Below, piece after piece: positions 4,789-34,462 of a stretch of DNA of 43,130 nt (positions are counted from its first letter, which is position 1; each line of letters starts with the position of its first letter). The DNA is taken from the NCBI GenBank assembly GCA_009692615.1, contig SHYW01000036.1, positions 1 to 43,130 of the forward strand, in the 5' to 3' direction. The position numbers and the translations under genes were made by a program. The stretch is from Deltaproteobacteria bacterium (GTDB lineage Bacteria; Desulfobacterota; Binatia; UBA9968). The notes under the pieces were generated by a model. That model made no database searches and was not told where the DNA came from. It saw only the letters and a program-made list of their open reading frames with translations.

Positions 4789-7700
4789 TCACTTGCCGTG
4801 ACAGCGTTTGTACTTCTTACCGCTGCCGCAGGGGCACGAATCGTTGCGGCCAACCTTTTCGTTGTCGCGCTTTTGCGGCGCCGTGGCGGCCGACGCGATG
4901 GGATCGCTACCATGGCTGAGTACCACTCGTTGCGGCCGCGGCTGTTCTACTTGAAGTTCGGGCGCGGCGCCCTCTCTGGCGATTTCAACGGTGAATAGCT
5001 TTTGTACGACGTCTTCTTGAACCCGCTGGTTCATCTCCTCGAACATGTCGTACCCTTCCTTCTGGTACTCTTGCAGCGGATTTTTTTGGCCGTAACCGCG
5101 CAGGCCGATGCCTTCTTTCAAATGATCCATATTGAGCAAGTGGTCTTTCCACAGGGTATCGATGGTCTGGAGCAAAATAATCTTTTCCAGCTGGCGCAGC
5201 ATCGGCGCGCCGAAGCGCCGCTCCTTGTCGTCGTAGACCGCCACCGCGCGCTCAAGCGCCAGATCCGACAGCCCTTCCGGTCGCATCCCTTCGAGTTCCT
5301 CGCTCTTCAAATCCAAGCGCAAATTGAACTGGTGATTGAAACCTTCGCCGAGGCCCGCCAGATCCCAATCGCTCGGATGGCTTTCCTTGTCGGCGTAGCG
5401 GGCGACGACTTCTTCGACCAGCTGGGCGGTCATGTCGAACACTTCTTCTTTTAAATTTTCACCTTTGAGAAATTCGCGCCGCTTGCTGTAGATTACTTCG
5501 CGCTGCTTGTTGAGCACGTCGTCATATTCGAGCAAATGTTTGCGGATGTCGAAGTTGTGGCCTTCGACTTTCTTCTGGGCGTTTTCAATCGCCCGGGTAA
5601 CCAAGCCGTGCTCGATGGGCTCGCCGTCCTCCATGCCGAGGCGCGCCATGATGCCTTGAATCCGGTCGGCGCCAAAGATGCGCATCAAATCGTCTTCCAG
5701 CGACAGATAAAAGCGCGACGAGCCGGGATCGCCCTGACGGCCTGCGCGGCCGCGCAACTGGTTATCGATGCGCCGGCTTTCGTGCCGCTCGGTGCCGAGA
5801 ATATGCAGGCCGCCGGCGGCCACGACTTTTTCTTTTTCCTCGGCGCAAACCCGATTGTAGTTGGCCAAGATTTCGTCGAAGCGCTGGCGGTATTCGTCGG
5901 GAGCCTTGTCCAGTTGCTCGCGGATATCTTCGACCATGCGCAAATATTCTTGGCGCTTGGTTTCGTAAGTTTGCTGCGCCTGCTGAATCGCTTCTTCGTA
6001 GGGCGCGCGCACTTCCTCGCAGCGCAACTCGGCTTCATTGAAAGCCGCATGGGCCGCATCGTATTCGCGCACCATCGCAGCGTGCTCGCCATTGGCGAGC
6101 GCCTCGAGAGTGCTGGTGAATTCGAAATCGAGTAAACGCTGTTCATAGGAGCGGCGCTTCTCGTCGAGGACTTCCATCAAACCCTCGCGCTCGCCGCGCT
6201 GCTCTTGCCAGCGTTCCAGCGTCGCGCTGAAATCTTCCTTGGCTTCGGCGAACTCCGCGCCATTGCCATTTTGGGAATGGAACAGCGCGGTTTCAAAATC
6301 TTCCTTGGCGCGTAGATAGCCCATGGGTAGCGGCCGCAGATTGTGCAAAGCTTCGATTAGTTCGGTGGCGGAGATATCTTCATAGCGTTCCCGCGCCGCG
6401 AGAAAAGGCGAGACCGCGCGAAGTTCCCGTTGCAAGTCGGTGGTCCGTTTGAGCGCGTCGCCGCGCTGCCGCTCGAACGCTTCGCCGTCCTTGAGTCGTT
6501 TCTTCTCGGCGCGCTGCACCTCTTCGTCGTACTTCTCGCGCAACTCGCGTAGCGCGTCTTCGTAGCGCGCCGCGCCTTGGATCGGCAGCTTGGAGGCGCG
6601 GTTGATCCACTCATTCTCCATGTCCGAGCGCGAGAGAAACTCGGGATTGCCGCCGAGTAAAATATCCGTGCCGCGGCCCGCCATATTGGTGGCAATAGTG
6701 ACCGCGTTAAATCGGCCCGCTTGGGCGATGATGCTCGCCTCAGCCTCGTGATTGACGGCGTTCAAAACGTTGTGCTTGACGTTCTTCTGCTTGAGTAGTC
6801 TCGATAGTTTTTCCGATTTGGCGACCGAAGTCGTGCCGACAAGAATCGGCTGGCCCTTCTTCGTTCTCTCTTCTATCTCCTGCACCACCGCCGCGTATTT
6901 TTCATTGTCGCTACGATAAACCACATCGGCCAGATCGTCGCGCACCATGCCGGCATTGGTCGGGATCACCGTGACATCCAGTTTGTAGATTTTTTTAAAC
7001 TCCGGCGCTTCGGTATCGGCGGTGCCGGTCATGCCCGCCAACTTTTTGTACATGCGGAAATAATTTTGAATCGTGATCGTCGCCAGGGTCTGGTTTTCCT
7101 CGCGAATATGAACGCGCTCCTTGGCCTCCACCGCTTGATGCAGACCGTCGGACCAACGCCGCCCCGACATCAATCGGCCGGTGAACTCGTCGACGATGAT
7201 CACCTCGCCTTCTTTGACGACGTAATCGACGTCGCGCTTGAAGATCGCATGGGCCTTAAGCGCCTGCTGCACATGGTGCAGCGTGTCGATCTGACGCGGA
7301 TCGTAGAGATTGTGCACGCCGAGCAAACGCTCGACTTTGGCGACGCCGCCTTCGGTGAGCGTCACCGAACGGCTCTTCTCGTCGACGGTGTAATCGCCCT
7401 TGGCGTCGATGGCGGCGCGGTCTTCCTGGGACGGATCGCCTTGAATCACCGCGCCGCGCTGCAGTTTGGGAATGATCCGGTCGATGTTGTAATACTTGTC
7501 CGTCGATTCTTCCGCCGGGCCGGAGATGATCAGCGGCGTGCGCGCTTCGTCGATCAGAATGTTATCGACTTCGTCGACCACCGCGTAATTGAGTTCGCGC
7601 TGGACGTATTCTTCCAGCGAGTATTTCATATTGTCGCGCAGGTAATCGAAGCCGAATTCGTTGTTGGTGCCGTAGGTGATATCGGCGAGATAGGCTTCCT

Positions 7701-8376
7701 GGCGCGTGATCGGCCGCAGATTGAGAAAGCGATAATCCTTGGTCAGATAGGTCGGATCGAAGAGAAAACTGGTCTCATGAACGATCGACGCCGTGCGCAG
7801 TCCGAGCTTATGAAAGATCGGCCCCATCCACTGCACGTCGCGCCGGGCGAGATAATCGTTGACCGTGATCAAATGCACGCCGCGGCCGGTAAGCGCGTTC
7901 AAATAAAGCGGCAAAGTCGCGACTAAAGTTTTTCCCTCGCCGGTTTTCATCTCGGCGATCTTGCCTTCATGGAGCACCGCGCCGCCGATCATCTGCACGT
8001 CGAAATGACGCAGTCCGATCGACCGCCGCGAAGCCTCGCGCACCGCCGCGAACGCTTCCGGCAACAGTTCCTGTAGCGCCTGCTCCTCGGCCTCGCGCAG
8101 CTGCTTATCCAACTCTTCGCTTTGGGCCTTTTGGGTCTCGCGCTGTTCGGGGTCGGCAATGACCGCTTCGCCGTTGGCCGCTTCTAACTCACCGCGCAAC
8201 GTCGCCGTCGCTTCGGCGATGCGGTTTTTAAACTCTTCGGTTTTAGCACGCAGCTGGTCGTCGGTGAGACCTTTGAACTCATCTTCCCATTTGTTGATTT
8301 CTTCAACATAGGGACGAATCCGCTTAATCTCGCGTTCGTTCTTAGTTCCGATAATGCCTTTGATAAAATCCCACAT
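4789..8376 (-). CDS. secA: Preprotein translocase ATPase SecA with a greatly enlarged variable insert
   Basis: SecA drives post-translational protein export through SecYEG. With the start at ATG 8376 ([10 protein letters not shown], the usual SecA beginning) it has 1195 residues, against about 850-950 in most SecAs. Visible landmarks are Walker A (TGEGKT), the [11 protein letters not shown] Walker B, the AGRGTDI and [14 protein letters not shown] motifs of NBD2, and a C-terminal SEC-C zinc motif [14 protein letters not shown]. The extra length lies in NBD2 between GGNPEF (about residue 578) and [11 protein letters not shown] (about 852). There roughly 270 charged, coiled-coil-like residues stand where E. 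coli has about 40 (the VAR region). An upstream in-frame extension to 8484 repeats WDFIK and has no ribosome binding site, so I did not use it. Confidence 0.95.
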
Positions 8377-8518
8377 GCTTTTAATGAAATCCCACGCCCT
8401 GTGAAGTATCTCCGGCTTAGGCGGAGACGAAGACGTGATCCAGCGAAGTTTAGATAACGCTAAAATACACGATTTTTGCCGCAACTTAAAGGTGCAGGAA
8501 GGGTGAAGTGAGGACTAT

Positions 8519-9319
8519 TTAGCGTTCGATCCGCACCGCCGATTCGACTTTCTCGCCTAAAAAGCGCCGGCCGACTTTGATGAAACGGTCCGGGGCGTCG
8601 GTGACGAAGAAGCTATGCGTCCCCTTCCCTGCTTTTCTTACAAGCGTGGCATTCTTCAACGCCGACTCCACCTCTTTAGCGGTCTCCTCGGCGGAGTCGA
8701 CCAGACGAACCGTGGCGCCCATGAATTTGCGGATCGCCTTCTTGAGCAAAGGATAGTGCGTGCAGCCGAGGATCAATGTATCGATGCCGCTTTGCTTGAA
8801 GCTGGCGAGATAGGCTTTCACGGTCATCTCCACCACCGCGTTGTCGGTCCAGCCTTCTTCGACTAGTGGCACGAATAGCGGGCAGGCCCGGCTGTAAACC
8901 TCGATTTTCGAATCCGCTGCTTTGAGCGCGTGCGTATAAGCGCCGCTTTGAATCGTCGCTTCGGTGCCAATGACGCCGACTTTTTTATTCTTCGTGCTCT
9001 TGAGCGCCCGCCTGACACCGGGCTCGATGACGCCGATGACTGGAATCGATAAACTTTCTTGCAATCGCTTCAGCGCGATCGCCGTCGAGGTGTTGCAAGC
9101 GACGACGACGATTTTAACGCCCTTCTCGACGAGGAATTGGCTGTTCTCGAAGGAGTAGCGCAGCACGGTTTCCACCGACTTGGTGCCGTAGGGCGACCGC
9201 GCGGTGTCGCCCAAGTAAACGGTATTTTCTTTGGGCAAGGTTTCGATGATCTGATGCAGCACCGTCAAGCCGCCGATGCCGGAATCGAACACGCCGATGG
9301 CGCTGTCTTTGTTGCTCAT
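8519..9319 (-). CDS. murI: Glutamate racemase
   Basis: A 266-residue cofactor-independent racemase that makes D-glutamate for peptidoglycan. Conserved landmarks are IGVFDSGIGGL at the N terminus, the first catalytic Cys in VVVACNTSTA and the second in LILGCTHYPLL. The product LGDTARSPYGTKS loop is also present. The start is set by an ATGA overlap: ATG at 9319 overlaps the stop of the radical SAM gene; an in-frame TTG at 9325 is the alternative. It is the last gene of a minus-strand string with the radical SAM gene and the 179-residue unknown. Length is normal for the family. Confidence 0.93.
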   Translation of the reverse strand: MSNKDSAIGVFDSGIGGLTVLHQIIETLPKENTVYLGDTARSPYGTKSVETVLRYSFENSQFLVEKGVKIVVVACNTSTAIALKRLQESLSIPVIGVIEPGVRRALKSTKNKKVGVIGTEATIQSGAYTHALKAADSKIEVYSRACPLFVPLVEEGWTDNAVVEMTVKAYLASFKQSGIDTLILGCTHYPLLKKAIRKFMGATVRLVDSAEETAKEVESALKNATLVRKAGKGTHSFFVTDAPDRFIKVGRRFLGEKVESAVRIER

Positions 9320-10419
9320 ACCCAACTGGACTCGGCGCCCGGCGCCATTTCATTGCCGAGATCTTTTTCGCACGCCGGCGCGAAACCGAAGACCTGTTGC
9401 CAAACTTCTTTAGACTCCATGCACAGATAAATTTTCACCGTCGGCGCTGCGCGGCGAATCCAGCCGACCATCTTGCGGTACATCTCGACGCGCAGCGGTT
9501 GAAAATAACGCAGCTTGCCGTCGGGGCAAATCACTTGCTCGCCGGTCAACAAGCGCGTGCGCGGAAATCTTTCGCGCATGGCGCGCTTCAACCCCGGCGT
9601 ATTGCGCAGCACGCCCAAACTCAACCAGGACAGCTTGCGCCAGTCGATGGTCGCGAATAGCTCTTCGAGCATGTTTTTGTAGTCCGCTTCCCAGCCGGGA
9701 TACTCGATCATCGGATCGAAATGAAATCCCAAGCGGTAGCCCACCTCCTGGCAACGGCGCGCAGCGATGAGCCGCTCTGAGAATGACGCCGTATCGGCTT
9801 CGTCCAAATCGATCACCCGCTGCGGATTCATCGACCAGGCAACCACGACACGGCCTTTGGGATCGAGCTTGAGTAAACTATCGACGCAATCGCTCTTGGT
9901 CTTCAGTTCGAGCAAGACGTTTGGCTGTTCGGCAAAGTATGGAATCAGCTCGCTGACCATGCCGGTGTACGGTTCCAGCGCCAAGCTGTCGGTGATCTCG
10001 CCGGTGCCGACGCGAAAAAACATGCCGCGATGTTTTTTTAAAACTTGATCCGCTTCGTCGATCAGCGCGCCGACGTTGCTGAAAACTTTGAGCTGGGAAT
10101 TGTCGGCCAAGTATTCTTGTAAATAGCAGTAGCTGCAATCCATCGGGCAGTTGCTGGCGAAGTTGATGACGAAATAATTGCAGCACACTTGGCCGTCGCT
10201 GCCAGGACATTTTTTAAAAAACTCGCCTTTGTGTTCGGCGAGGAATAATTTTTTTTTGGCAGCACCGAAGCGATCCGCAGCAACGTTCGAACCGGCGGAA
10301 GCGATTTCGTCGACCACCGTAAACGGCACATCGGCCAGCGATTGGCGCAGGTTGCGATAGATCGGACTGCCGAGCGAACTGCGCTCGACGATCACTTCTT
10401 CAGGTTGATAGAGTTTCAT
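9316..10419 (-). CDS. Spore photoproduct lyase-like radical SAM protein
   Basis: A 367-residue radical SAM enzyme of the SPL family. The 4Fe-4S site is C91, C95 and C98 in CPMDCSYCYLQ (CX3CX2C), followed by the SPL-like Y-L-Q. Classical SPL repairs spore photoproduct in DNA and uses a Cys (C141 in Bacillus) as hydrogen donor, in a context like EAACTSD. The corresponding stretch here appears to be RVGTGEITD (about 136-144), with no Cys, so repair of spore photoproduct by the known mechanism is doubtful. The neighbours are murI, overlapping by four bases, and a 179-residue unknown 12 bases upstream. Nothing here suggests sporulation. Its real substrate is unknown. Confidence 0.8.
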   Translation of the reverse strand: MKLYQPEEVIVERSSLGSPIYRNLRQSLADVPFTVVDEIASAGSNVAADRFGAAKKKLFLAEHKGEFFKKCPGSDGQVCCNYFVINFASNCPMDCSYCYLQEYLADNSQLKVFSNVGALIDEADQVLKKHRGMFFRVGTGEITDSLALEPYTGMVSELIPYFAEQPNVLLELKTKSDCVDSLLKLDPKGRVVVAWSMNPQRVIDLDEADTASFSERLIAARRCQEVGYRLGFHFDPMIEYPGWEADYKNMLEELFATIDWRKLSWLSLGVLRNTPGLKRAMRERFPRTRLLTGEQVICPDGKLRYFQPLRVEMYRKMVGWIRRAAPTVKIYLCMESKEVWQQVFGFAPACEKDLGNEMAPGAESSWV

Positions 10420-21325: not shown

Positions 21326-21814
21326 AAAACAACTCCTTTTTGTGTTTTACTTCTACTAAAATTCTCACGCATTTGAATGCAAGAAAAGAGAAAAAGCCCT
21401 TTTCTTGTTTTAAAATTTTGTCTCATGCGAAGAAAAATGCCTTGGCTATCTTCCCCTGAACGATCCTCATTCGCTTGTCAGATTAACAAGGTTATGTGGC
21501 TCATAACAATCATTTCAAATTTTACAACGGTGGCCGAGCATTGATAATCGCAGTCTATGGCGCGGCGTCCAATGGTGTTTGTAGCGTGTCCTCCTCCGTC
21601 CGCAGTGGATGCCTGGCGGCTCTGGTTCGGTGGGCGCTGTTGCACTCTCGTTATGATACAGATGGGGGAGAAGTAACCGTTTGTATCTTGAGCAATTTGA
21701 CTGATGCCAGTAAAAAATGCATTAATTTTAGTTTTAGAAAATTGAATGAAGACTTCGCTTATTTGTTGTCGCCCGTTGGTTTTCATTTTGAAGATCAATC
21801 AATGGAAATGGTTA
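21326..21814. other. Gap between the chimeric pseudogene and the next SBP gene
   Basis: About 490 bases, with an AT-rich part next to the pseudogene. It must hold the promoters of the two divergent units. Open frames in it (for example + 21496) show no ribosome binding site, recognisable motif or natural composition. No repeat or RNA gene was recognised. Confidence 0.5.
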
Positions 21815-22804
21815 ATGGCCCCAATGCCATCTAGGTTTACGATGTTTTTAATTCTCGTCGGTGTTTTATGGCTTACGCAAATTGCCGAAGCGGCCGACTC
21901 CAAGGTCAGGGTGGCCATACCGAGTGAAAGCATGGCCCAAATCGCATTTTATGTGGGTATGGAGAAAGGTTATTACAAACAAGAGGGCCTCGACGTCGAG
22001 CTCATCTTGATGAGAGCCCCGGTTGCCAACCTTTCTTTGATCAGCGGGGATGTCAATTTTTCGACAGTCCCGGCGGCAGCTCTCAACGCGGCTTTGCGTG
22101 GCGCTCCACTCCGCGTGATTTACAGTACTTTTTACCGTCCTATGCATTGGCTGTACTCCAAGCCGCAAATTCGTAACGTCAAGGATCTCAAGGATAAGCG
22201 AATCGGCATCGATGGTCGTGGCGGAGCCATGGAGATGCTGATGCGAGAGATACTGGAGAAGAACGGAATTAAGAACGAGAAAAACACGCCGCTGCTTGCG
22301 CTAGGGGTTCAGTCCAACCGATTTACTGCTCTTGAAAGTGGTGTCGTGGATGCGACGATTCTAACTTTTCCTTTGAGCTTTACCGCTGAGGCCGCCGGAT
22401 TTCATCAGCTCGCATCGTTCCTCGAACAGGACGATATGGTGCAACTTGCGGGTACACTCGTGTTGCGCGAACCAGTGTCCGATCCGTCCTTGGTGGAAAA
22501 ATTTCTTAGGGGAACCATGAAAGGGTTTCTTTTTGCTCGCGCCAATCGTACCGAGACGGCAGCGATTCTCGGACAGCGGATAAAGATCACAAATGACCTT
22601 GCACTCCGGATTTACGATTTGGCTAGGCCGGGTATGAGTATGGACGGCACGGTGAGAGACGATTTACAGAAAAAGGTGCTCGAACAGACCGTCGAGCTGG
22701 TAGGCTTGAAACAATCCCCGCCGATACAAAAGTTTTTTGATTTTTCCATGGTAAAAAAGGTGCGGGCTGAACTTGAAACTACAAAATGGACACCAGGAAA
22801 GTGA
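21815..22804 (+). CDS. NMT1/TauA-type ABC substrate-binding protein
   Basis: A 329-residue periplasmic binding protein of the NMT1/THI5-like (TauA/SsuA) group, which binds small organic ligands such as sulfonates, nitriles or pyrimidine precursors. Residues 1-26 are a signal peptide (FLILVGVLWLTQIAEA). The mature start KVRVAIPSESMAQIAFYVGMEKGYYKQEGLDVELI is typical of the group (positions 30-62). It ends in FFDFSMVKKV, like its paralogues in the window. The frame is open to 21746, but the start at 21815 leaves a normal signal peptide; no clear Shine-Dalgarno precedes it. The Rieske oxygenase gene follows 57 bases later on the same strand, which suggests that the binding protein captures its substrate. 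No permease or ATPase gene is near. Confidence 0.85.
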   Translation: MAPMPSRFTMFLILVGVLWLTQIAEAADSKVRVAIPSESMAQIAFYVGMEKGYYKQEGLDVELILMRAPVANLSLISGDVNFSTVPAAALNAALRGAPLRVIYSTFYRPMHWLYSKPQIRNVKDLKDKRIGIDGRGGAMEMLMREILEKNGIKNEKNTPLLALGVQSNRFTALESGVVDATILTFPLSFTAEAAGFHQLASFLEQDDMVQLAGTLVLREPVSDPSLVEKFLRGTMKGFLFARANRTETAAILGQRIKITNDLALRIYDLARPGMSMDGTVRDDLQKKVLEQTVELVGLKQSPPIQKFFDFSMVKKVRAELETTKWTPGK

Positions 22805-22861: not shown

Positions 22862-24070
22862 ATGCTTAAGGCTTCTGACAATGCGATTTTCGCTCAGGTC
22901 GGGCCGGATACCCCCGGCGGTCAATGGCTTCGCCGATACTGGCACCCAATCGCAATCTCCGATCAATGGAGCGGCATCAAAACACTGTGGAACTGCGACG
23001 AACAGTTCCAATTTAAAGGCCGGTTCGGAACGGTCGCTGAGTTCGGCGAACGAGCCGGCACATTCAAGGGAACTCCGACCGCGGTGAGGATTTTGGGTGA
23101 AGACCTGGTTCTCTTCCGCGATGGTAGTGGCAGGCTCGGGTTGCTCGGACTGCATTGCCCGCATCGCGGTACATCACTTGAATTAGGCAGAATCCGGCAA
23201 GACGGAATCGAGTGTTGCTACCACGGGTGGAAGTTTGACGTTAATGGCAATTGCCTTGCCCAGCCTGCGGAGCCAACCGAGAGCACGCTAAAAAGCAAAG
23301 TTCACCACAAAGCCTACCAAGTCAAAGAATTGGGGGGATTAATCTGGGCCTATCTCGGTCCCGACGAAGCGCCGGTCCTGCCGAAAGTCGACGTGGTCGC
23401 CCGAGAGGATGGCATTCGTGCCGTGGAAAATTACGGGCTTTGGCCGGCGAATTATTTCCAGCTCATTGAAAATGCTCCGGACGCAACGCACACGGGCATT
23501 TTACACGCCGGGAAGGGTGGCGAACGGAGCGATATCTGGGGACACGAGATCCCACAAGCAAGCTGGGAAGAAAATGAATACGGACTAAAGACAACTTCCA
23601 AGCGATCCAATCTCACTCGCTACGCGCAATTTATTTTGCCTACCGCTTACCGTTTGGCGCAGCCGTGGCCGGGTGGAAACATTAAATGGCCACGCGCCTC
23701 GGCAATTTGGAAAACTCCGGTGGACGATACCCACACGTTAATGCTCAGCGTGGTATTCACACCCTTCAAGGACGGCAAAGCGCCTGACTTGCCGCCAGGT
23801 TTTACCTTTGACATTACAGACGCGCTGCGTGTGCATAGGTTGCAGGACTATCAAGCCATCATCAGTCAAGGCGAAGTTGCCGATCGGACCGCTGAAGTCC
23901 TCGGAACATCGGACGGCGGGATTATATTACTGCGAAAGATAATTATGGACGGCATCAGAGCCGTGCAAGATGGCCGAGATCCGAAAGGTGTGTGGCACGA
24001 TCCTGCAATGGACCGGCTTCTCGAATTCGGTGCCGCCGTAACCGATAGCCAGATGACAAAGGTGGCCTGA
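22862..24070 (+). CDS. Rieske non-heme iron aromatic-ring oxygenase, large (alpha) subunit
   Basis: A 402-residue oxygenase of the phenoxybenzoate/vanillate-type Rieske group. The 2Fe-2S cluster is held by CPHRG (about 98-102) and CCYHGWK (about 119-125), the CxH/CxxH pattern. The mononuclear iron motif is DATHTGILH (about 210-218), with the bridging Asp just before the first His. GGAGG precedes the ATG. It starts 57 bases after an SBP gene, a transport-plus-oxygenase arrangement. No reductase or beta subunit is next to it; an electron donor must come from elsewhere, and the flavin reductase at 18349 is not obviously the right type. The substrate is unknown; demethylation or ring hydroxylation of an aromatic acid is typical of the family. 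Confidence 0.92.
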   Translation: MLKASDNAIFAQVGPDTPGGQWLRRYWHPIAISDQWSGIKTLWNCDEQFQFKGRFGTVAEFGERAGTFKGTPTAVRILGEDLVLFRDGSGRLGLLGLHCPHRGTSLELGRIRQDGIECCYHGWKFDVNGNCLAQPAEPTESTLKSKVHHKAYQVKELGGLIWAYLGPDEAPVLPKVDVVAREDGIRAVENYGLWPANYFQLIENAPDATHTGILHAGKGGERSDIWGHEIPQASWEENEYGLKTTSKRSNLTRYAQFILPTAYRLAQPWPGGNIKWPRASAIWKTPVDDTHTLMLSVVFTPFKDGKAPDLPPGFTFDITDALRVHRLQDYQAIISQGEVADRTAEVLGTSDGGIILLRKIIMDGIRAVQDGRDPKGVWHDPAMDRLLEFGAAVTDSQMTKVA

Positions 24071-26803: not shown

Positions 26804-27823
26804 TCACGGCCGCCACCCACTCGCCTTCAATTGCTCCCTCGCCTTGCGTAAAAAACTAAAATCGAAATAGTCCACAGTGCGAATTTCCTTTTTCACGCCG
26901 GCTGAGCGTTGGGCGTCTTCGATGACCGCTTGCAAAACTTTTTCTTCAACGGTGCCGTCCCTCGTCATCACTTTCACGCTGGCGTCGTAGATCGCGCTGA
27001 TCGCATCACGGTCTTTCGATTTGAGAAACTGCATCATGTAGTTGATCGATGGTTCACGGCGCGTGGTGAAGAACAGATAGCCTTTGAGTGCCGCGGTTAT
27101 GAAGCGGGCGATTTTCTCCGGCGCTTGCTTGATGCGGTCCACTGACGTGACAATCCCGCCGCTAAAATATTCGGTGACATAATCTCCAGCGGCTGCGAGT
27201 TTGGTGAAGCCTTCCTTCTGCGCGCGATAACTATTGGCCGCGTCCAGGAGCGTCGCCTGGATCACTTTGCCCTTGAGCGAGATGAAGCGCATGTCGTTGC
27301 CGCCCATCACCATGAGGTTCACGTCTTTCGCCGGGTCCAAATTGTTTTTGCGCAGTATCTCCCGCGTCACCACCGCGACGGTGCCGCCGATGGAAAGAAT
27401 GCCGATGGCGGCGCCTTTCAGTTGCACGAAGGACTTAATCTGCGGTTGGGTGATGAAATCCCAATCCGGCTTCTCGTCGGCGACCATGAGAATCTTGAGC
27501 GGAATGCCGCGCACTGCGGCGCCGAGGCCGCTAAATCCTTGAGTGAAAAAATCTATTTCACCGACGGACGTGATCTTGGCTGCCAGCTCGCCGCGGATGT
27601 TAAGGATCTCGACGTTAAGCCCTTCGTTTTTGAAGTAGCCCTCTTTCTGCGCGACGAGGAGATAAAGCACCGAAGGCGAAGTCAGCGACGCGCTCGCAAC
27701 GCGCACGTTGTCTGCGGCGTGAGTCGAACCTGGAACAAAGACTAAGAGATTGGCCGCAAAGAACGCAAAGGACACAAAAAAGCTTTTTGCGGCCTTCGAG
27801 ATGTGTAGGATGCTACGTACCAT
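26804..27823 (-). CDS. NMT1/TauA-type ABC substrate-binding protein
   Basis: A 339-residue periplasmic binding protein, from ATG 27823 (GGTGGA upstream) to TGA 26804. The signal peptide core SFAFFAANLLVFVPGSTHA is encoded by one arm of an inverted repeat (27749-27770). The mature protein shows the group's pattern: VRVASASLTSPSVLYLLVAQKEGYFKNEGLNVEI, GIPLKILMVADEKPDW and a C-terminal FDFSFLRKAREQL. Almost the same last 390 bases occur in the chimeric pseudogene at 20724-21110, so this is the likely donor. It is divergent from the SBP gene at 27942. An upstream in-frame ATG at 28003 is disfavoured because it would overlap that gene. No permease or ATPase is near. Confidence 0.88.
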   Translation of the reverse strand: MVRSILHISKAAKSFFVSFAFFAANLLVFVPGSTHAADNVRVASASLTSPSVLYLLVAQKEGYFKNEGLNVEILNIRGELAAKITSVGEIDFFTQGFSGLGAAVRGIPLKILMVADEKPDWDFITQPQIKSFVQLKGAAIGILSIGGTVAVVTREILRKNNLDPAKDVNLMVMGGNDMRFISLKGKVIQATLLDAANSYRAQKEGFTKLAAAGDYVTEYFSGGIVTSVDRIKQAPEKIARFITAALKGYLFFTTRREPSINYMMQFLKSKDRDAISAIYDASVKVMTRDGTVEEKVLQAVIEDAQRSAGVKKEIRTVDYFDFSFLRKAREQLKASGWRP

Positions 27824-28004
27824 GGCGATTTCCACCAATACTCCAGAGCTGCACAATCCGACAAGACCTTTGTCGGCTGGTCGAATTCCTGCTAAACATG
27901 GCTCGTTTGCAGCGCTGAACAACGGAAGGGAATTAACAAAGATGATTTCAACGAAGCTCGTCGCGACTTTTTTATTTGCGTACTTTGCGTTCTTTGCGGC
28001 CAAT
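27749..28004. repeat. Inverted 22-bp repeat pair encoding the signal peptides of divergent SBP genes
   Basis: The 22 bases at 27749-27770 and at 27983-28004 are perfect inverted copies (CTTTGCGTTCTTTGCGGCC on the coding strands). Each arm encodes FA-F-FAA in the signal peptide of its own gene, minus and plus strand. A smaller pair GGCCGCAAA/TTTGCGGCC lies at 27752-27760 and 27786-27794. The unit is related to the GCAAAG palindrome at 18962. Confidence 0.9.
27824..27941. promoter_or_regulatory. Divergent promoter region of two SBP genes
   Basis: These 118 bases separate the start codons of the minus-strand gene (27823) and the plus-strand gene (27942). Both promoters must lie here or reach into the coding ends. 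No confident -35/-10 pair could be assigned by eye. Confidence 0.4.
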
Positions 28005-28934
28005 CCTCTTCACGCCGCCGCGGCGCCGACGACGATTCGTGTCGGCTATCCGCAGTTGAACGGCGCGGTGATTCCACTCTGGACGATTCAAGCCGGCAAG
28101 CTCGATCAGCCTTACGGCGTCGACTTAAATTCGATTTACATTCCGGGCGGCGCGCGGCTCACCCAGACCGCGGTTTCCGGCGACATCGATATCGCGCTCA
28201 CCGGCGGCGCGGTGATCAACGCGATCTTGAGCGGAGCGGAATTGGTTTGTGTCGCGCTGCAAGTTCCCACCTATGCCTTTTCGCTCTACGGCAGGACGGA
28301 ATTCAAAGAGGTAGCGGATCTGCGCGGCAAAACCCTCGGCGTTATCACCAAGGGCGCCGCCTCCGACCACGCTTCCATCGCGCTCTTGAAGCAATACAAG
28401 ATGACCCAGAAAGACATGAAAGTTTTGTACTTCTCGCGTCAAGGCGATGCGCTGGCCGCCCTCGACAAGGGCATCGTCAACGCCGCGGTGCTGTCGGCGC
28501 CGACCACGCTGATGGCGCGGCGCTTGGGCTACAAACAAATCGTCAACATCGGCGCGCTCAAGTTGCCCTATACTTTCATCGGCGCCGCCGTCCACCGTTC
28601 GCTGACCAAACAGAATCCGGAGTTGATCAAGTCATTTCTAAAGGCATTCATGGCGGGATTGAAAGTCTCCAAAGAACAGCCCGCCTTCGCCAAACAAGCG
28701 AGCGCGCGCCACTTCGGCAGCACCGACGCGGAAATCGCTGAAGAAGCCTACAACAGCTTCGTGCCGCTGTTCCCCCAGGTGCCCTACGTCACCGAAGAAT
28801 CGGTGCGCGGAACGCTCGCCGCGACCAATCATCCAAAAGCGGCGACCGCGAACCCGAAAGATTTTTTCGACAATCGTTTCCTGCAGGAGTTGGAGAGCAG
28901 CGGCTTCGTCAAAGAGCTGTACGCCAGCCGGTAA
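27942..28934 (+). CDS. NMT1/TauA-type ABC substrate-binding protein
   Basis: A 330-residue periplasmic binding protein. ATG 27942 follows GGAAGGG. An open frame further up to 27750 would run through the divergent gene and is rejected. The signal peptide (ATFLFAYFAFFAANPLHA) is written by the right arm of the 22-bp inverted repeat. The mature part starts IRVGYPQLNGAVIPLWTIQ, then DIDIALTGGAVINAILSG, the phosphate/ligand-loop-like KTLGVITKGAASDHA, and FIGAAVHRSL, the usual order for the NMT1/TauA group. It is only distantly similar to the divergent neighbour. A CCCCTCTTT hairpin 16 bases past the stop may terminate it. No transport permease genes are present. Confidence 0.88.
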   Translation: MISTKLVATFLFAYFAFFAANPLHAAAAPTTIRVGYPQLNGAVIPLWTIQAGKLDQPYGVDLNSIYIPGGARLTQTAVSGDIDIALTGGAVINAILSGAELVCVALQVPTYAFSLYGRTEFKEVADLRGKTLGVITKGAASDHASIALLKQYKMTQKDMKVLYFSRQGDALAALDKGIVNAAVLSAPTTLMARRLGYKQIVNIGALKLPYTFIGAAVHRSLTKQNPELIKSFLKAFMAGLKVSKEQPAFAKQASARHFGSTDAEIAEEAYNSFVPLFPQVPYVTEESVRGTLAATNHPKAATANPKDFFDNRFLQELESSGFVKELYASR

Positions 28935-30396: not shown

Positions 30397-31674
30397 CTAC
30401 TCGTTGCGTTGCAGCGCCGCCAATGCCTGCTCGACCAAACGGCGGCGGACTTTCTTTTCATCTTCGGCGCTCACGCTGGCGTCGCCGACAACGTGAACGA
30501 TGCCGTTGCCGAGCACGGTGCGGTTGGCGCCGACCATTTTCGCGATCGGCAGCGCGGCGGTGATCTGGACCGTCGGTATGCCGGCTTTTTCTAATTCCGT
30601 GGTGATCGCAGCGCCGCTGCGAGTGCTGGTGCCTCACGTGGACGTGAGGATGATCGCGTCGATGCCGAGCCGTTTCGCCTTCTCGGCCATCTCGCGCCCC
30701 ATGCGCCGGGTGTTCGACAGCGGATTGGCCAAACCGGAAGTCGAGAGAAACTCGTCGTGCAGTTCGCCGATGCAGCCCTCTTTTTGCATCTCGCGCAAGA
30801 CGTCCAACGGCACCAAGCGGTCGGGGTCCTGGCGAACAAACTGCGGATCGTAACCGCCGTGGGAAATCTCGTAGTCCTCGCCGCGCAAATCTTGGCAGCC
30901 TTTAATATTGTATGAACCCCAGCGCGTCGCCGCCGAACCTTGAATCTTGTCGGGATTGCCCTTGGGCACCAAACCGCCGTCAGTGATGAGCATGAGCTTG
31001 GCATGCTTGATATCTTTCACGCCGGGCGGCATGGGAATCGGCGCAAATGTCGTCGGCAACATTTCCGACTCGAACGGTTCGCTTTTCACTTTCGCCAAAA
31101 CCATATCGACCAAACGCTCCCCCGCCGTGCGCTCGACGAATTGATCGCGAATCAAACCGCGCGCGATGTAGCCCTCGTCTTTGGGCGCGCCGATATTGTC
31201 ATGGCGGGCCAATTTAATCGCCAGCGCCGCCATGCGCGCGAGCACATCGCGCATCTTCGCCGCATTGTCGCCGGAATCGATGATGTACAGGAACTCGCGA
31301 TAGAGATCGGCGCCGGGATTCTCTCGCGCCATGCCCGTGATCACTGGGATATTTAATTTCGATTGCACCGCGGCGCACAGCGCGCCCGCGGCCATGCCGT
31401 AGCGCCCGGCAAGAAAACACGGACCGGCAAGAAACAAATCCGCCTTCGCTTCGCGAACCTTGTCCAAAGCGAGAGCGATCACAGAATCTTGATTCTCGAC
31501 AGCGAAATTATCGCCACAGATGAGCGACGCGACAATCTGCGATCCATCGCCAAGCAGCTGCTCGAACAATTTCCCCGGCCCGACAGCGCCATCGCGAACT
31601 TCCAACCCAGCGCCAGCCTGCTCTTCGCCGCCGAGCCCGCCAAAAAACTGATTCAGGTAATGAACGATTCGCAT
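30397..31674 (-). CDS. GrdB-like selenoprotein (glycine/betaine/sarcosine reductase component B family), in-frame UGA
   Basis: This gene reads through a TGA at 30634-30636. From ATG 31674 (AAGGAG six bases upstream) the frame runs 346 codons to that TGA. It continues without change of frame for 78 more codons to TAG at 30397, giving 425 residues with selenocysteine at 347, the length and Sec place of GrdB. Around the codon it reads ILTSTUGTSTRSGAA. Classical GrdB has, from memory, ILTSTUGTCTRCGA; both Cys are Ser here. The first part shows VHYLNQFFGGLGGEEQA and AGPCFLAGRYG, as in GrdB. Classical enzymes reduce substrate C-N bonds with GrdE and GrdA. A GrdE-like gene and an SBP gene lie upstream, grdA is absent. 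Conventional callers would cut the protein at the TGA. Host SelA/B/C/D must be encoded elsewhere. Confidence 0.9.
30606..30636 (-). promoter_or_regulatory. UGA selenocysteine codon and candidate bacterial SECIS hairpin
   Basis: The TGA is 30634-30636 on the minus strand. From 12 bases past it the mRNA has a perfect 7-bp stem TCGCAGC/GCTGCGA with a GGC loop (30622 to 30606), at the distance expected for a bacterial SECIS. A second perfect inverted pair CCTCACGT/ACGTGAGG (30632-30649) spans the codon itself. Confidence 0.65.
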
Positions 31675-31761: not shown

Positions 31762-33036
31762 TTAATACACCATCGACCTCAAGCGAGACGCGCCCTGTTG
31801 ATTAGCCACGCCGACGACGTTGAGCGATTCGATCTCGAACGGTCCGGCGAGCAGCTCGGCCAAGCCGCTGTTGGCGGCAATCACGCGCTTGACCTGCGGC
31901 AGCTTCCAGTGCGTGCCGTTGCCGCCGACGCAGACGATGGCGTCGACTTCGGGGAAATTAAACAACAGCGCCGACTCGACCCGTTGATCGCGCGCCTGGT
32001 CGGTCACCTGCACCGCGGTTCTGACGCCCATGGTTTCCAACAATCTGGCGGTCTCGGACAAATCGGTGTGCGGCACGCCTCCGCCGAATTTGGTCAGCAC
32101 CGCAGCGTCGGCGCGCAGCGCCCACTTGGTCAAATTGGCTGCGAAGCGGCAATTGCGCTCCCGGTCAAAATTATTCGCCGACGCGATGGTCGCCACGGTG
32201 CCGGCGAAATTCAACTCGCCGGCCCGATGGCGCCGATATAATTCCGTAATCACCGGATGATTCTGGTAAAAATAAGTTTCAGCGCCGCCCAACGACGCGT
32301 GATAGGACGGCACCAGCGCGCCGTCGAGCCATTCGTTGGGATGGAGCAACGTCGGCAACATGCCGTCAGTGTCCGCGCCGTAAAGTATATGTTCTTCAGC
32401 TTCGGGTTTTCTCTGCCGCGAAAAAATCTGTCCGACGTAGGCGACCCGCGGCAGGCCGGAACGATTTTCACCGGCGGAAATGTCGAGAACCTCACTGCGC
32501 GCTGGTGTCGAATCGAAAGCCGCGCGCGCCAAGTGCACCGCCACTTTGAGTTGCGCCAAGCGATAGCTCCGTTGCCGCGCGGCCGCCGGCATTTTTGCTT
32601 TAGTGCGCGGCACAACAATCAAATGATGCAGCGACGAATAGCGCGAGCCCGCCGCCGCCGCGCCGCTCATTTCCAAAACGTAGCCGGTGGCGCCGCGCGA
32701 GTCGCCGGAAGAATCTTCGCGCAGCATGGTCACCGCCGCGCCGGCGAGCACATGCGTCGTGCCGCTGCCCGCCGTCAACGGCGCGCCGAGAATGCCCGGC
32801 CAATCGGAACTGCCGCCCGGCGCCTTGGCGCGCGGCTCGACGATGTCGAACACCGGTCCAGCGCGCAGACTTTCGCCGGGCTGAGCGATTTCGAAACTAA
32901 CCGTTTCAATCAACCCGTCTTCAAGCACGAGACTCCGTAACTCGTCCTGATTAACCCGCAACGTGGTCCCATCTAAGCGAAACTCAGCGCCAAATTGAAT
33001 TGCCGTGATTGGATGAATTGTCAGTGTCAGTTGCAT
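31762..33036 (-). CDS. GrdE-like subunit (glycine/betaine/sarcosine reductase component B, alpha) lacking the Asn-Cys cleavage site
   Basis: A 424-residue member of the GrdE family. The order matches GrdE: IQFGAEFRLDGTTLRVN, the FEIAQPGES segment, DIVEPRAK, GTTHVLAGAAVTM, then DGMLPTLLHPNEWLDGALV and the C-terminal NQQGASRLRSMVY. Classical GrdE is a proprotein that cleaves itself at Asn-Cys (DGAIVSGNC, from memory) to leave a pyruvoyl group. Here the aligned stretch is DGALVPSYH, so Asn-Cys appears replaced by Tyr245-His246. No Cys is near, so self-cleavage and pyruvoyl formation are not expected. The start is ATG 33036 after AAGGCGAG. It lies 176 bases after an SBP gene and 87 bases before the selenoprotein gene, all minus strand. 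Function by C-N reductive cleavage is uncertain. Confidence 0.85.
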   Translation of the reverse strand: MQLTLTIHPITAIQFGAEFRLDGTTLRVNQDELRSLVLEDGLIETVSFEIAQPGESLRAGPVFDIVEPRAKAPGGSSDWPGILGAPLTAGSGTTHVLAGAAVTMLREDSSGDSRGATGYVLEMSGAAAAGSRYSSLHHLIVVPRTKAKMPAAARQRSYRLAQLKVAVHLARAAFDSTPARSEVLDISAGENRSGLPRVAYVGQIFSRQRKPEAEEHILYGADTDGMLPTLLHPNEWLDGALVPSYHASLGGAETYFYQNHPVITELYRRHRAGELNFAGTVATIASANNFDRERNCRFAANLTKWALRADAAVLTKFGGGVPHTDLSETARLLETMGVRTAVQVTDQARDQRVESALLFNFPEVDAIVCVGGNGTHWKLPQVKRVIAANSGLAELLAGPFEIESLNVVGVANQQGASRLRSMVY

Positions 33037-33212: not shown

Positions 33213-34199
33213 TCACGATCCCGGCTGCCAGCCCTTCGCGTGCAGCGCCGCATTAGCTTTACGCAGCACGGAAAAATCGAAAACCTTTTCCGCCGCCACA
33301 ACTTCTTTGAGCACCGCGGTCTTGGCGACAAACGCCGCCATGCGCTTCTGCGCCTCTTCGTTCACCGTACCGTCAGCGGTCATGGTCGGCCGCGAAGCGT
33401 CGTAAACTTTGGTCGCGATCTGCTCGTCGATCTTGAGAGCTTTGGTCAGAACGCGAATCGCGCCGCTGCGATTGTCGCGCGAATGGATAAAGCCCATCGC
33501 CGAAGCGCGCACGAAGTGCTCCACTAGCGCCGGCTCGGCGCGTAGGGTTTCGTCGCGGGCGACGATGCCGCCGCTCGCCAAGAGAATCCCCTGGTCTTTG
33601 AAGACTACCAGCTCGCGAAAGCCGGCGTCTTTGGCCGCAAACGTAAACGGCGCGATGATCATCGCGCCATCCACCGCGCCGGTGATCAAACTGGTCACAC
33701 GGGTATCCGCCGCGCCCAACGTAAGGATGGTCAAATCTTTGCCGGCGTCGATGCCGTTGGCGCTCAGCACTTCGCGCAGCAACAAATCGTCGATCACGCC
33801 GGGCCCGGACACGGCGATCTTTTTGCCGCGCAATAATTTTAGATTTTGCAGCTCGTTCTTGACGAAAAGCACATGCTGCGGCTTGTCGAAGTGCATCATC
33901 AAGACTTTCAGCGCGCCACCGCGCAAAGCCGTGTTCATGCCGACCAGCGGCACCCTGGAAAATTCTACACTGCCGCTGAGCACCGCCAGATTCGCCGTCG
34001 CCGCGCGCATGGCGATCAGCTCGACGTCCAACCCCTCGCTTGCGTAGCAACCATTCAACTTCGCCGTCAGAAACGACAGCCCGGCAATCGTGTAGCCTGG
34101 CATGGCGACACGTACCTTACGGGTTTGCGCCTCAGCGGTGCTTGCCGCAATCGCGGTAACAAGGATCGAATAGACAATTGTCCGAAACGTTCTGTTCAC
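33213..34199 (-). CDS. NMT1/TauA-type ABC substrate-binding protein upstream of the selenoprotein genes
   Basis: A 328-residue periplasmic binding protein. The start is GTG 34199 because GGAGG lies six bases upstream and a signal peptide follows at once (TIVYSILVTAIAASTAEA); a longer open frame to 34340 lacks both. The mature start KVRVAMPGYTIAGLSFLTAKLNGCYASEGLDVEL and the end FDFSVLRKANAALHAKGW follow the group's pattern and resemble the SBP at 21815. It is the first gene of the minus-strand string leading to the GrdE-like and GrdB-like genes. It probably supplies or senses the substrate of that enzyme (inference). No permease or ATPase gene is adjacent. Confidence 0.88.
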   Translation of the reverse strand: MNRTFRTIVYSILVTAIAASTAEAQTRKVRVAMPGYTIAGLSFLTAKLNGCYASEGLDVELIAMRAATANLAVLSGSVEFSRVPLVGMNTALRGGALKVLMMHFDKPQHVLFVKNELQNLKLLRGKKIAVSGPGVIDDLLLREVLSANGIDAGKDLTILTLGAADTRVTSLITGAVDGAMIIAPFTFAAKDAGFRELVVFKDQGILLASGGIVARDETLRAEPALVEHFVRASAMGFIHSRDNRSGAIRVLTKALKIDEQIATKVYDASRPTMTADGTVNEEAQKRMAAFVAKTAVLKEVVAAEKVFDFSVLRKANAALHAKGWQPGS

Positions 34200-34462
34200 C
34201 AAATGCCTCCATAACTCTAAATATACTTTTATCAGACCGATAGTAAAAAAGCTTTCGTCTGAAATTGTCGACGCGTCAGGACTATCTTTGCGCGCCGCGT
34301 CTGCTATAGTGCCTCTAACGATTGCTAACCTAACGTCCAAATAGAAAACACTCGGTCCAAAATCCCGAGTTTCAAAGAGGCGGTTCCTTAGGGTAACCGC
34401 CTCTTTGCGTTTCTAGTCTAGCAATCTGTTTGAAACCCGGACGCGGGCAACGACGCTGCTTC
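34200..34462. other. Gap with a terminator hairpin between the SBP gene and the GT/GH130 relic
   Basis: These 263 bases hold the upstream region of the minus-strand SBP gene and a strong hairpin at 34374-34411. No gene was seen. The open frame to 34340 on the minus strand is discussed with the SBP gene. Confidence 0.5.
34374..34411. terminator. Strong GC-rich terminator hairpin
   Basis: AAAGAGGCGGTT (34374-34385) pairs with AACCGCCTCTTT (34397-34408) around a short loop, followed by GCGTTTC on +. It would stop + strand transcription; what it originally terminated has been lost or lies on the other side of the deletion scar. Confidence 0.7.

Follow-up and report, generated by a model that had tools for sequence, protein, structure and literature searches.

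A GrdE/GrdB-like selenoprotein pair lacking the pyruvoyl-forming cysteine and the CxxC motif, and its predicted coupling to GrdA and GrdC

Two adjacent genes in the genome of a Deltaproteobacteria bacterium of the Binatia lineage (assembly GCA_009692615.1) encode homologues of GrdE and GrdB, of which the GrdE-like protein lacks the pyruvoyl-forming Cys and the GrdB-like selenoprotein lacks both Cys of the UxxCxxC motif. The pair is best explained, with a probability of about 0.55, as a protein B related to those of glycine, sarcosine, betaine and fluoroacetate reductases that works without pyruvoyl and would feed GrdA and GrdC. The host genome is a 5.05-Mb draft in 186 contigs (98.7% complete), and the pair is located on contig C36; the whole stretch of 43,130 nucleotides analyzed from this contig (SHYW01000036.1) is called the window. 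Comparisons were made mainly within clade 1, which comprises 51 unique GrdE-like proteins with the motif EWLDG, together with their GrdB partners. The features of the window used in this study are listed below.

30397-31674, (-) strand: grdB-like selenoprotein gene, 425 aa (PF07355, 434 bits; TIGR01918, 467 bits)
30606-30622, (-) strand: SECIS-like hairpin downstream of the UGA, conserved across clade 1
30616-30618, (-) strand: Ser353, where the second Cys of UxxCxxC is lost (Cys in 1/44 clade-1 GrdB)
30625-30627, (-) strand: Ser350, where the first Cys of UxxCxxC is lost (Cys in 0/44 clade-1 GrdB)
30634-30636, (-) strand: in-frame TGA, codon 347, predicted to be read as Sec, context STUGTSTRSG
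31417-31419, (-) strand: Cys86 (GPCFxAGRYG), specific to clade 1
31762-33036, (-) strand: grdE-like gene, 424 aa (PF09338, 258 bits, cut-off 22.2)
32299-32325, (-) strand: degenerate cleavage site DGALVPSYH, codons 238-246, with His246 at the position of the pyruvoyl-forming Cys
33213-34340, (-) strand: gene for an NMT1/THI5-like substrate-binding protein, 176 bp upstream of the grdE-like gene and on the same strand

The grdB-like gene lies 87 bp downstream of the grdE-like gene on the same strand, and both products exceed the Pfam cut-offs and thereby carry the profiles of protein B (PF09338 plus PF07355/TIGR01918). Among the curated models, the best for both proteins were those of sarcosine reductase, GrdG (NF040793, 190.4 bits, cut-off 780) for the GrdE-like protein and GrdF (NF040794, 476.5 bits, cut-off 800) for the GrdB-like protein, and the second-best for the former was FarE (NF053623, 137.9 bits, cut-off 675). 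The GrdB-like protein also remained below the cut-offs of glycine reductase GrdB (TIGR01917, 430 bits, cut-off 602.2) and betaine GrdH (NF040795, 429.6 bits, cut-off 775), and the window proteins scored 13.2 bits with the PrdA model (TIGR04480, cut-off 700) and 85.8 bits with the PrdB model (TIGR04483, cut-off 300). FarE, GrdG and PrdA were ruled out by the curated cut-offs as identities of the GrdE-like protein. The sequence-only reading had proposed a chemistry different from that of glycine, betaine or proline reductase. This holds to the extent that the pair is not GrdB, GrdF, GrdH or PrdB, judged by the cut-offs and by the GrdB and GrdF motifs (0/44); it does not extend to betaine reductase on the ground of the missing Cys, because betaine GrdI is also without it. 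The losses suggest the absence of a pyruvoyl Schiff base, whereas the reaction at Sec may well be unchanged.

Residues of the processing site were numbered as offsets from the Asp of the DG motif, so that the Cys is found at offset 8 in GrdE/GrdG (DGAxxSGN/C) and in PrdA (HALT/C); for C. difficile GrdE and PrdA, the available part of PMC9908766 describes a pyruvoyl derived from cysteine. Reference proteins were taken from four plasmid-collection records and their labels were verified by NCBIfam, which identified L084 as GrdG, L089, L090 and L091 as PrdA, and the selenoprotein of Acetoanaerobium noterae as betaine GrdH (811.9 bits). The window site DGALVPSYH aligned with the canonical site without gaps, with Tyr-His in place of Asn-Cys, as had been claimed from the sequence, His at offset 8 and no Asn-Cys elsewhere at the aligned cleavage site, and the GrdE-like protein is expected to form no Cys-derived pyruvoyl. 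Cys at offset 8 was present in 8 of the 11 proteins from the reference records, the exceptions being two betaine-type proteins and L095, whose sequence stops before the site. It was present in 0/51 clade-1 proteins, 0/53 unique GrdE-like proteins of the genome's family and 0/33 proteins from named clade-1 loci (one further sequence being too short to reach the site), and none of the seven GrdE-like genes in the host genome has it. The betaine-type B subunits (GrdI) of Enterococcus gilvus and A. noterae have SGSF at the site and no Cys.

Three substitutes for the lost Cys were considered and rejected. A role of His246 as a stand-in catalytic residue is not compatible with its presence in only 15 of the 51 clade-1 proteins, the others having S, Y, W, Q, V, R, N, T, D or F at offset 8. 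A shifted Asn-Cys is not a clade-wide feature, with Cys found merely at offset 5 (2/51) or offset 6 (3/51); outside clade 1, 8 of 35 family proteins have a Cys at offset 10. Finally, a Ser-derived pyruvoyl was rejected for the clade as a whole, though not for subsets of it, with Ser at offset 8 in 9/51 and at offset 6 in 41/51, the other ten having G, A or C there.

In the GrdB-like protein, both Cys flanking the Sec in the canonical U-GTCTRCG are replaced by Ser (U-GTSTRSG), which agrees with the initial observation and sets the window protein apart from canonical GrdB, GrdF and GrdH with UxxCxxC. The TGA is present in all 44 clade-1 GrdB sequences spanning the site, 43 of which read UGTSTRSG and one UGTSTRCG. 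In selenoproteome surveys the motif of GrdB is written as UxxC (PMC2398784 and PMC9312934, as far as available), and it is given as UxxCxxC in the accessible text of PMC13188914. The GrdB and GrdF motifs found in the available part of PMC9751293 matched 0/44 clade-1 sequences, 3/4 canonical rows (all but L092) and 0/2 betaine rows. The losses of the pyruvoyl site and of the CxxC are separable, as betaine GrdH retains both Cys (2/2) and further groups retain one or none.

Clade-1 GrdB sequences carry Cys86, found in 44/44 as against 0/24 others, where Ala stands; the comparison used the 25 rows outside clade 1 minus L092, in which the last part of a PrdA frame continues through a TGA into PrdB, so that its N-terminal half is PrdA sequence, and which forms a long branch in the GrdB tree. 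Cys96 shows the opposite pattern (0/44 in clade 1 and 23/25 in the other rows, L092 included). In the predicted GrdB model (pLDDT 80.9, pTM 0.56), Cys86 and Sec347 are located one in each half, at or just past the end of a strand before a helix, and a half-to-half profile alignment placed Cys86 opposite Sec347, although the match was weak (E 0.031, probability 1.6%, with the mixed row L092 included). A thiol partner for Sec is plausible because, in the scheme for D-proline reductase, a Cys of PrdB is described as cleaving the selenoether (PMC3091704, available in part). Judging from the topology of the model, Cys86 may be such a thiol partner of Sec347. By Foldseek and VIA-align 2, the N-terminal lobe of GrdB resembled lobes of type-I periplasmic binding proteins and of related alpha/beta folds (Z up to 11.0 over about 130 residues), an arrangement that may be widespread. 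The GrdE model (pLDDT 83.5, pTM 0.88) had no match among PDB structures at E 0.001 or better, a result with no bearing on fold novelty, and the two PDB sequence searches yielded no usable relative, one giving no match and the other three, none of them with E below 0.74.

The UGA, the SECIS-like hairpin and the Sec machinery are all present and together point to Sec at the GrdB-like active site. The host genome encodes tRNA-Sec (74.9 bits, cut-off 47) and SelB (410 bits, cut-off 242). The clade-1 sequence past the UGA can be folded as a hairpin CGCAGC-GGC-GCUGCG, and bacterial SECIS hairpins are located at about this distance from the UGA. The mean folding energy of 44 clade-1 sequences was -13.05 kcal/mol; the 40 controls with synonymous codons averaged -11.13 (sd 0.42), and not one was as low. 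This signal is one of conservation more than of covariation: the covariation term of RNAalifold was close to zero (0.11), with one pair maintained by substitutions on both sides in a single locus (L136). Taken alone, the window hairpin folded no better than shuffled sequences (z -0.07), and an Rfam scan of the window at gathering thresholds gave no match.

Clade 1 was collected by a single scan of GTDB genome contigs with the clade alignment, which gave 47 loci, and the addition of family loci brought the set to 51 unique proteins, 18 of which come from 14 of the 25 family genomes. The labels of the metagenome-assembled genomes include Binatia, Deltaproteobacteria, Nitrospinota, SAR202, Dehalococcoidia, Chloroflexi and a few others. 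Of the 51 loci, 44 contain the Sec region of GrdB, four have GrdB cut by the contig end, two have no GrdB in the locus and one has a GrdB with a broken frame near the Sec codon (L067/L109). The GrdB alignment was built from the 69 of 98 unique GrdE-like proteins next to which a GrdB with Sec and at least 380 residues is encoded. A branch with SH-aLRT 100 set clade 1 apart from the remaining sequences both in the GrdB tree with the four key columns removed (44 clade-1 rows) and in the GrdE tree with the loop removed (49 clade-1 rows; eight rows, namely PrdA-type, L095 and partial ones, excluded), both being quick trees with SH-aLRT only and with long-branch warnings. Whether YH/GTSTRSG forms its own clade had been posed from the sequence as a check; both trees recovered such a clade, in which the His itself varies. 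No sister group is claimed, since the node that unites clade 1 with another group in the GrdE tree may be false.

In a sample of 297 genomes from its own phylum, matches above 37% identity were confined to the window's genome, and 12 of the other 296, which include one other family genome, carry a more distant GrdE-like gene. Within the family the gene is strongly expanded, with 98 GrdE-like matches, fragments included, in 19 of 25 genomes; G015 (8.3 Mb, contamination 9%) has 27, some of them fragments at contig ends. Three more GrdE/GrdB groups are found on host contigs C83, C19 and C75 (L023, L026 and L024), with the Sec contexts UGSSTRCG, UGTCSRSG and UGTGTRSG, so that the part of UxxCxxC that is lost differs among the three; on C19, a single GrdB is accompanied by two GrdE-like genes. 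Contig C1 (109 kb) carries a GrdE-like gene (L025, 8761-10065) with no GrdB match on the contig, and C181 (5.8 kb) encodes a separate PrdB-like protein (L029, 1287-2102; 126.8 bits with TIGR04483, cut-off 300), the in-frame TGA of which has the surroundings U-P-F-C, and has no GrdE-like match.

Within the window, the NMT1/THI5-like gene upstream of the pair is a possible member of the same operon, and a gene of this type also lies directly upstream of the pair in L077 and L101. Further NMT1/THI5-like substrate-binding proteins are encoded at 21746-22804 (+) and 27750-28934 (+), and no permease was identified among the scanned window ORFs. Other genes include that for a SecA-like protein of 1231 aa (4789-8484, (-)), with a P-loop domain matched in two stretches and a length presumably exceeding that of usual SecA, a protein of the Asp/Glu/hydantoin racemase family (8519-9325, (-)) and a Rieske oxygenase-like protein with a LigXa-type C-terminus (22862-24070, (+)), near which the genes for a flavin reductase and a member of the PEP-mutase family are located.

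The sequence-only reading had also counted an absence of grdA toward its proposal, a point that found no support: grdA is missing from the window contig only, and a grdA with its own TGA (179.7 bits, cut-off 130), adjoined by grdC (553 bits, cut-off 450), is present on contig C109, so that the host genome has the GrdA and GrdC of a complete glycine reductase complex. In the family, GrdA was found in 15 of 25 genomes, that is, in 15/19 with a GrdE-like gene and in 0/6 without, and 16 of 17 GrdA loci have a GrdC match. GrdA was found in 11 of the 14 genomes that carry clade-1 genes; the three without a match (G008, G009 and G011) are drafts with completeness of 67, 93 and 95 and belong to the window's genus, which is represented by five genomes. 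GrdD over the cut-off was found in 0/25 family genomes (20 have weak matches, as do 7 of 14 control genomes), the sole match in the 98.7%-complete host draft being PlsX (375.6 bits with TIGR00182), and none was seen in the Chloroflexota loci, which are stretches rather than whole genomes.

Mapping of co-occurring genes, which had been suggested from the sequence, showed that at 8 of 51 clade-1 loci, all from Chloroflexota, grdA and grdC are no more than 5 kb away from the pair, and that a DUF255/Thioredox_DsbH gene lies within the same distance at 23 of 51 (16/31 with sufficient flank). The latter is PF03190 in the three scanned, stands upstream, divergent or downstream of the pair, and encodes W-C-x-x-C in 22/22 proteins checked. 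It is not next to the window pair; the host copy is on contig C64 and is 59% identical to that of L109, and the family is common (7/14 control genomes match). The more frequent DsbH linkage, the three genomes of the same genus in which no GrdA match was found and the selenoether-cleaving Cys described for PrdB in the available part of PMC3091704 would fit a stand-alone, thioredoxin-coupled Sec reductase, independent of GrdA like D-proline reductase, in which the DsbH-like protein re-reduces Sec and the product is released. We regard this as unlikely, because four of the eight loci with GrdA and GrdC near the pair (L119, L125, L127 and L132) also have the DsbH-like gene, GrdA follows the GrdE-like genes through the family, and the PrdB score is low.

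In the preferred reading, a pyruvoyl-free protein B coupled to GrdA and GrdC, the GrdE-like protein would stay unprocessed and serve to bind the substrate or to act as a scaffold. In the GrdB-like protein, Sec would attack the carbon beside the carboxylate and expel a leaving group not requiring a Schiff base, for example an onium, halide or ether and not a primary or secondary amine. The alkyl group would then pass to the Sec of GrdA and on to GrdC, both encoded in the genome, and because GrdD was not found the product would probably leave as a CoA ester or free acid and not as acetyl phosphate. Cys86 may take over from the lost CxxC as the thiol protecting or resolving Sec, and the DsbH-like protein, linked to the pair in the clade, may donate electrons. 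We base this reading on the Cys-free site (51/51), the Cys-free betaine GrdI and the FarBE published without both features; on GrdA and GrdC above equivalog cut-offs and the tracking of GrdE-like genes by GrdA (15/19 vs 0/6); and on GrdD (0/25), DsbH (23/51), Cys86 (44/44 vs 0/24), the SECIS-like hairpin, SelB and tRNA-Sec. Since clade 1 shares both absences and the GrdA/GrdC link, the logic of FarEB with another substrate is the simplest reading. Against it, the adjacency of GrdA/GrdC is confined to Chloroflexota loci and is not seen at the window or other clade-1 loci, DsbH is away from the window pair and widespread, no GrdA match was found in three same-genus genomes with clade-1 genes, and for the Cys86-Sec347 part the half-to-half match is weak and the GrdB model has a pTM of 0.56.

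A fuller picture is offered only tentatively, as one that we would not expect to hold in its entirety: a Stickland-type reductase rebuilt outside the classic amino-acid fermenters, free of pyruvoyl, CxxC and GrdD, with Sec347 and Cys86 paired across two lobes, its own DsbH-like reductant, CoA as the acceptor of the acyl groups of GrdC, and, in Binatia-type and SAR202 lineages, a multitude of copies, each specific for its substrate, that strip organic acids of their alpha substituents.

It is quite improbable that the pair works in the manner of fluoroacetate reductase, as a dehalogenase or dealkoxylase dedicated to a single alpha-halo or alpha-alkoxy acid. The same double loss has been published for FarBE (PMC10838667, seen in part) and FarE is the second-best curated model; however, its score is far under the cut-off, is below that of the GrdG model (190) and is unspecific, as reference glycine- and sarcosine-type proteins score higher (200.6 and 205.8 bits), and no antiporter or radical-SAM gene was recognized among the scanned flanking ORFs of the window. 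A spore-photoproduct-lyase-type protein, which we take to be radical SAM, is encoded about 20 kb from the pair. Quaternary ammonium and sulfonium compounds cannot form Schiff bases, and a betaine-like reductase acting on such a compound would share the Cys-free site of GrdI; but GrdH retains UxxCxxC (2/2), the GrdI site is SGSF and not SYH, the window protein is under the GrdH cut-off (429.6 vs 775), betaine proteins and clade 1 form separate groups in both trees and no BCCT transporter was found among the scanned window ORFs, so that we give this very little credence. That the pair has abandoned substrate reduction to act as a Sec peroxidase or thiol oxidoreductase, as a thioredoxin-like neighbour gene and the peroxidase activity of GrdB, reportedly the subject of Grobe 2007 going by its title, might suggest, is hardly credible given the joint retention of both subunits, the many invariant residues of the GrdE-like protein and the linkage with GrdA/GrdC.

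If the preferred reading is true, GrdA/GrdC-coupled selenoenzyme chemistry reaches beyond amino-acid fermenters into uncultured SAR202 and Binatia-type lineages, with its redox chemistry altered and the acetyl-phosphate step missing. It would provide a testable function for selenoproteins whose annotation stops at subunits of glycine/betaine/sarcosine reductase, and would allow a direct test of whether the classic mechanism needs pyruvoyl, CxxC and GrdD. Dehalococcoidia glycine reductases are mentioned in the accessible part of PMC9751293; in the open-licence literature, no paper was found on glycine reductase in SAR202, none of those naming at least two of Binatia, Binatota and Tectomicrobia mentioned a selenoprotein, and two dealt with glycine reductase together with Chloroflexota and selenocysteine. 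The combination of a multi-phylum clade, GrdA/GrdC without GrdD, a DsbH-like partner and Cys86 was not found in the literature examined.

Among the known systems, sarcosine reductase GrdG/GrdF of Peptoclostridium acidaminophilum gives the best models for both window proteins, yet these remain far below its cut-offs and lack the SGN/C of GrdG and the UGTCTRCG and GrdF motif of GrdF. Betaine GrdI shares the Cys loss, but GrdH keeps UxxCxxC and the betaine proteins group separately in both trees. PrdA/PrdB of D-proline reductase are distant homologues that use Sec plus pyruvoyl, and PrdA, unlike the window protein, keeps the Cys at offset 8. FarEB of Cloacibacillus porcorum is a pair of GrdE/GrdB homologues also published as being without the processing Cys and the CxxC, although the window protein scores 137.9 of the 675 bits needed for FarE, FarB could be compared by its published description only, and no far-type transporter was recognized in the scanned flanking ORFs of the window. 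In the available portion of their paper, Leong et al. (PMC10838667) describe FarB without CxxC and FarE without pyruvoyl-forming cysteines, point out that a Schiff base is not formed by fluoroacetate, and expect GrdA and GrdC to receive the product of FarEB. The double loss itself is therefore already published, for FarBE (PMC10838667, in the part available).
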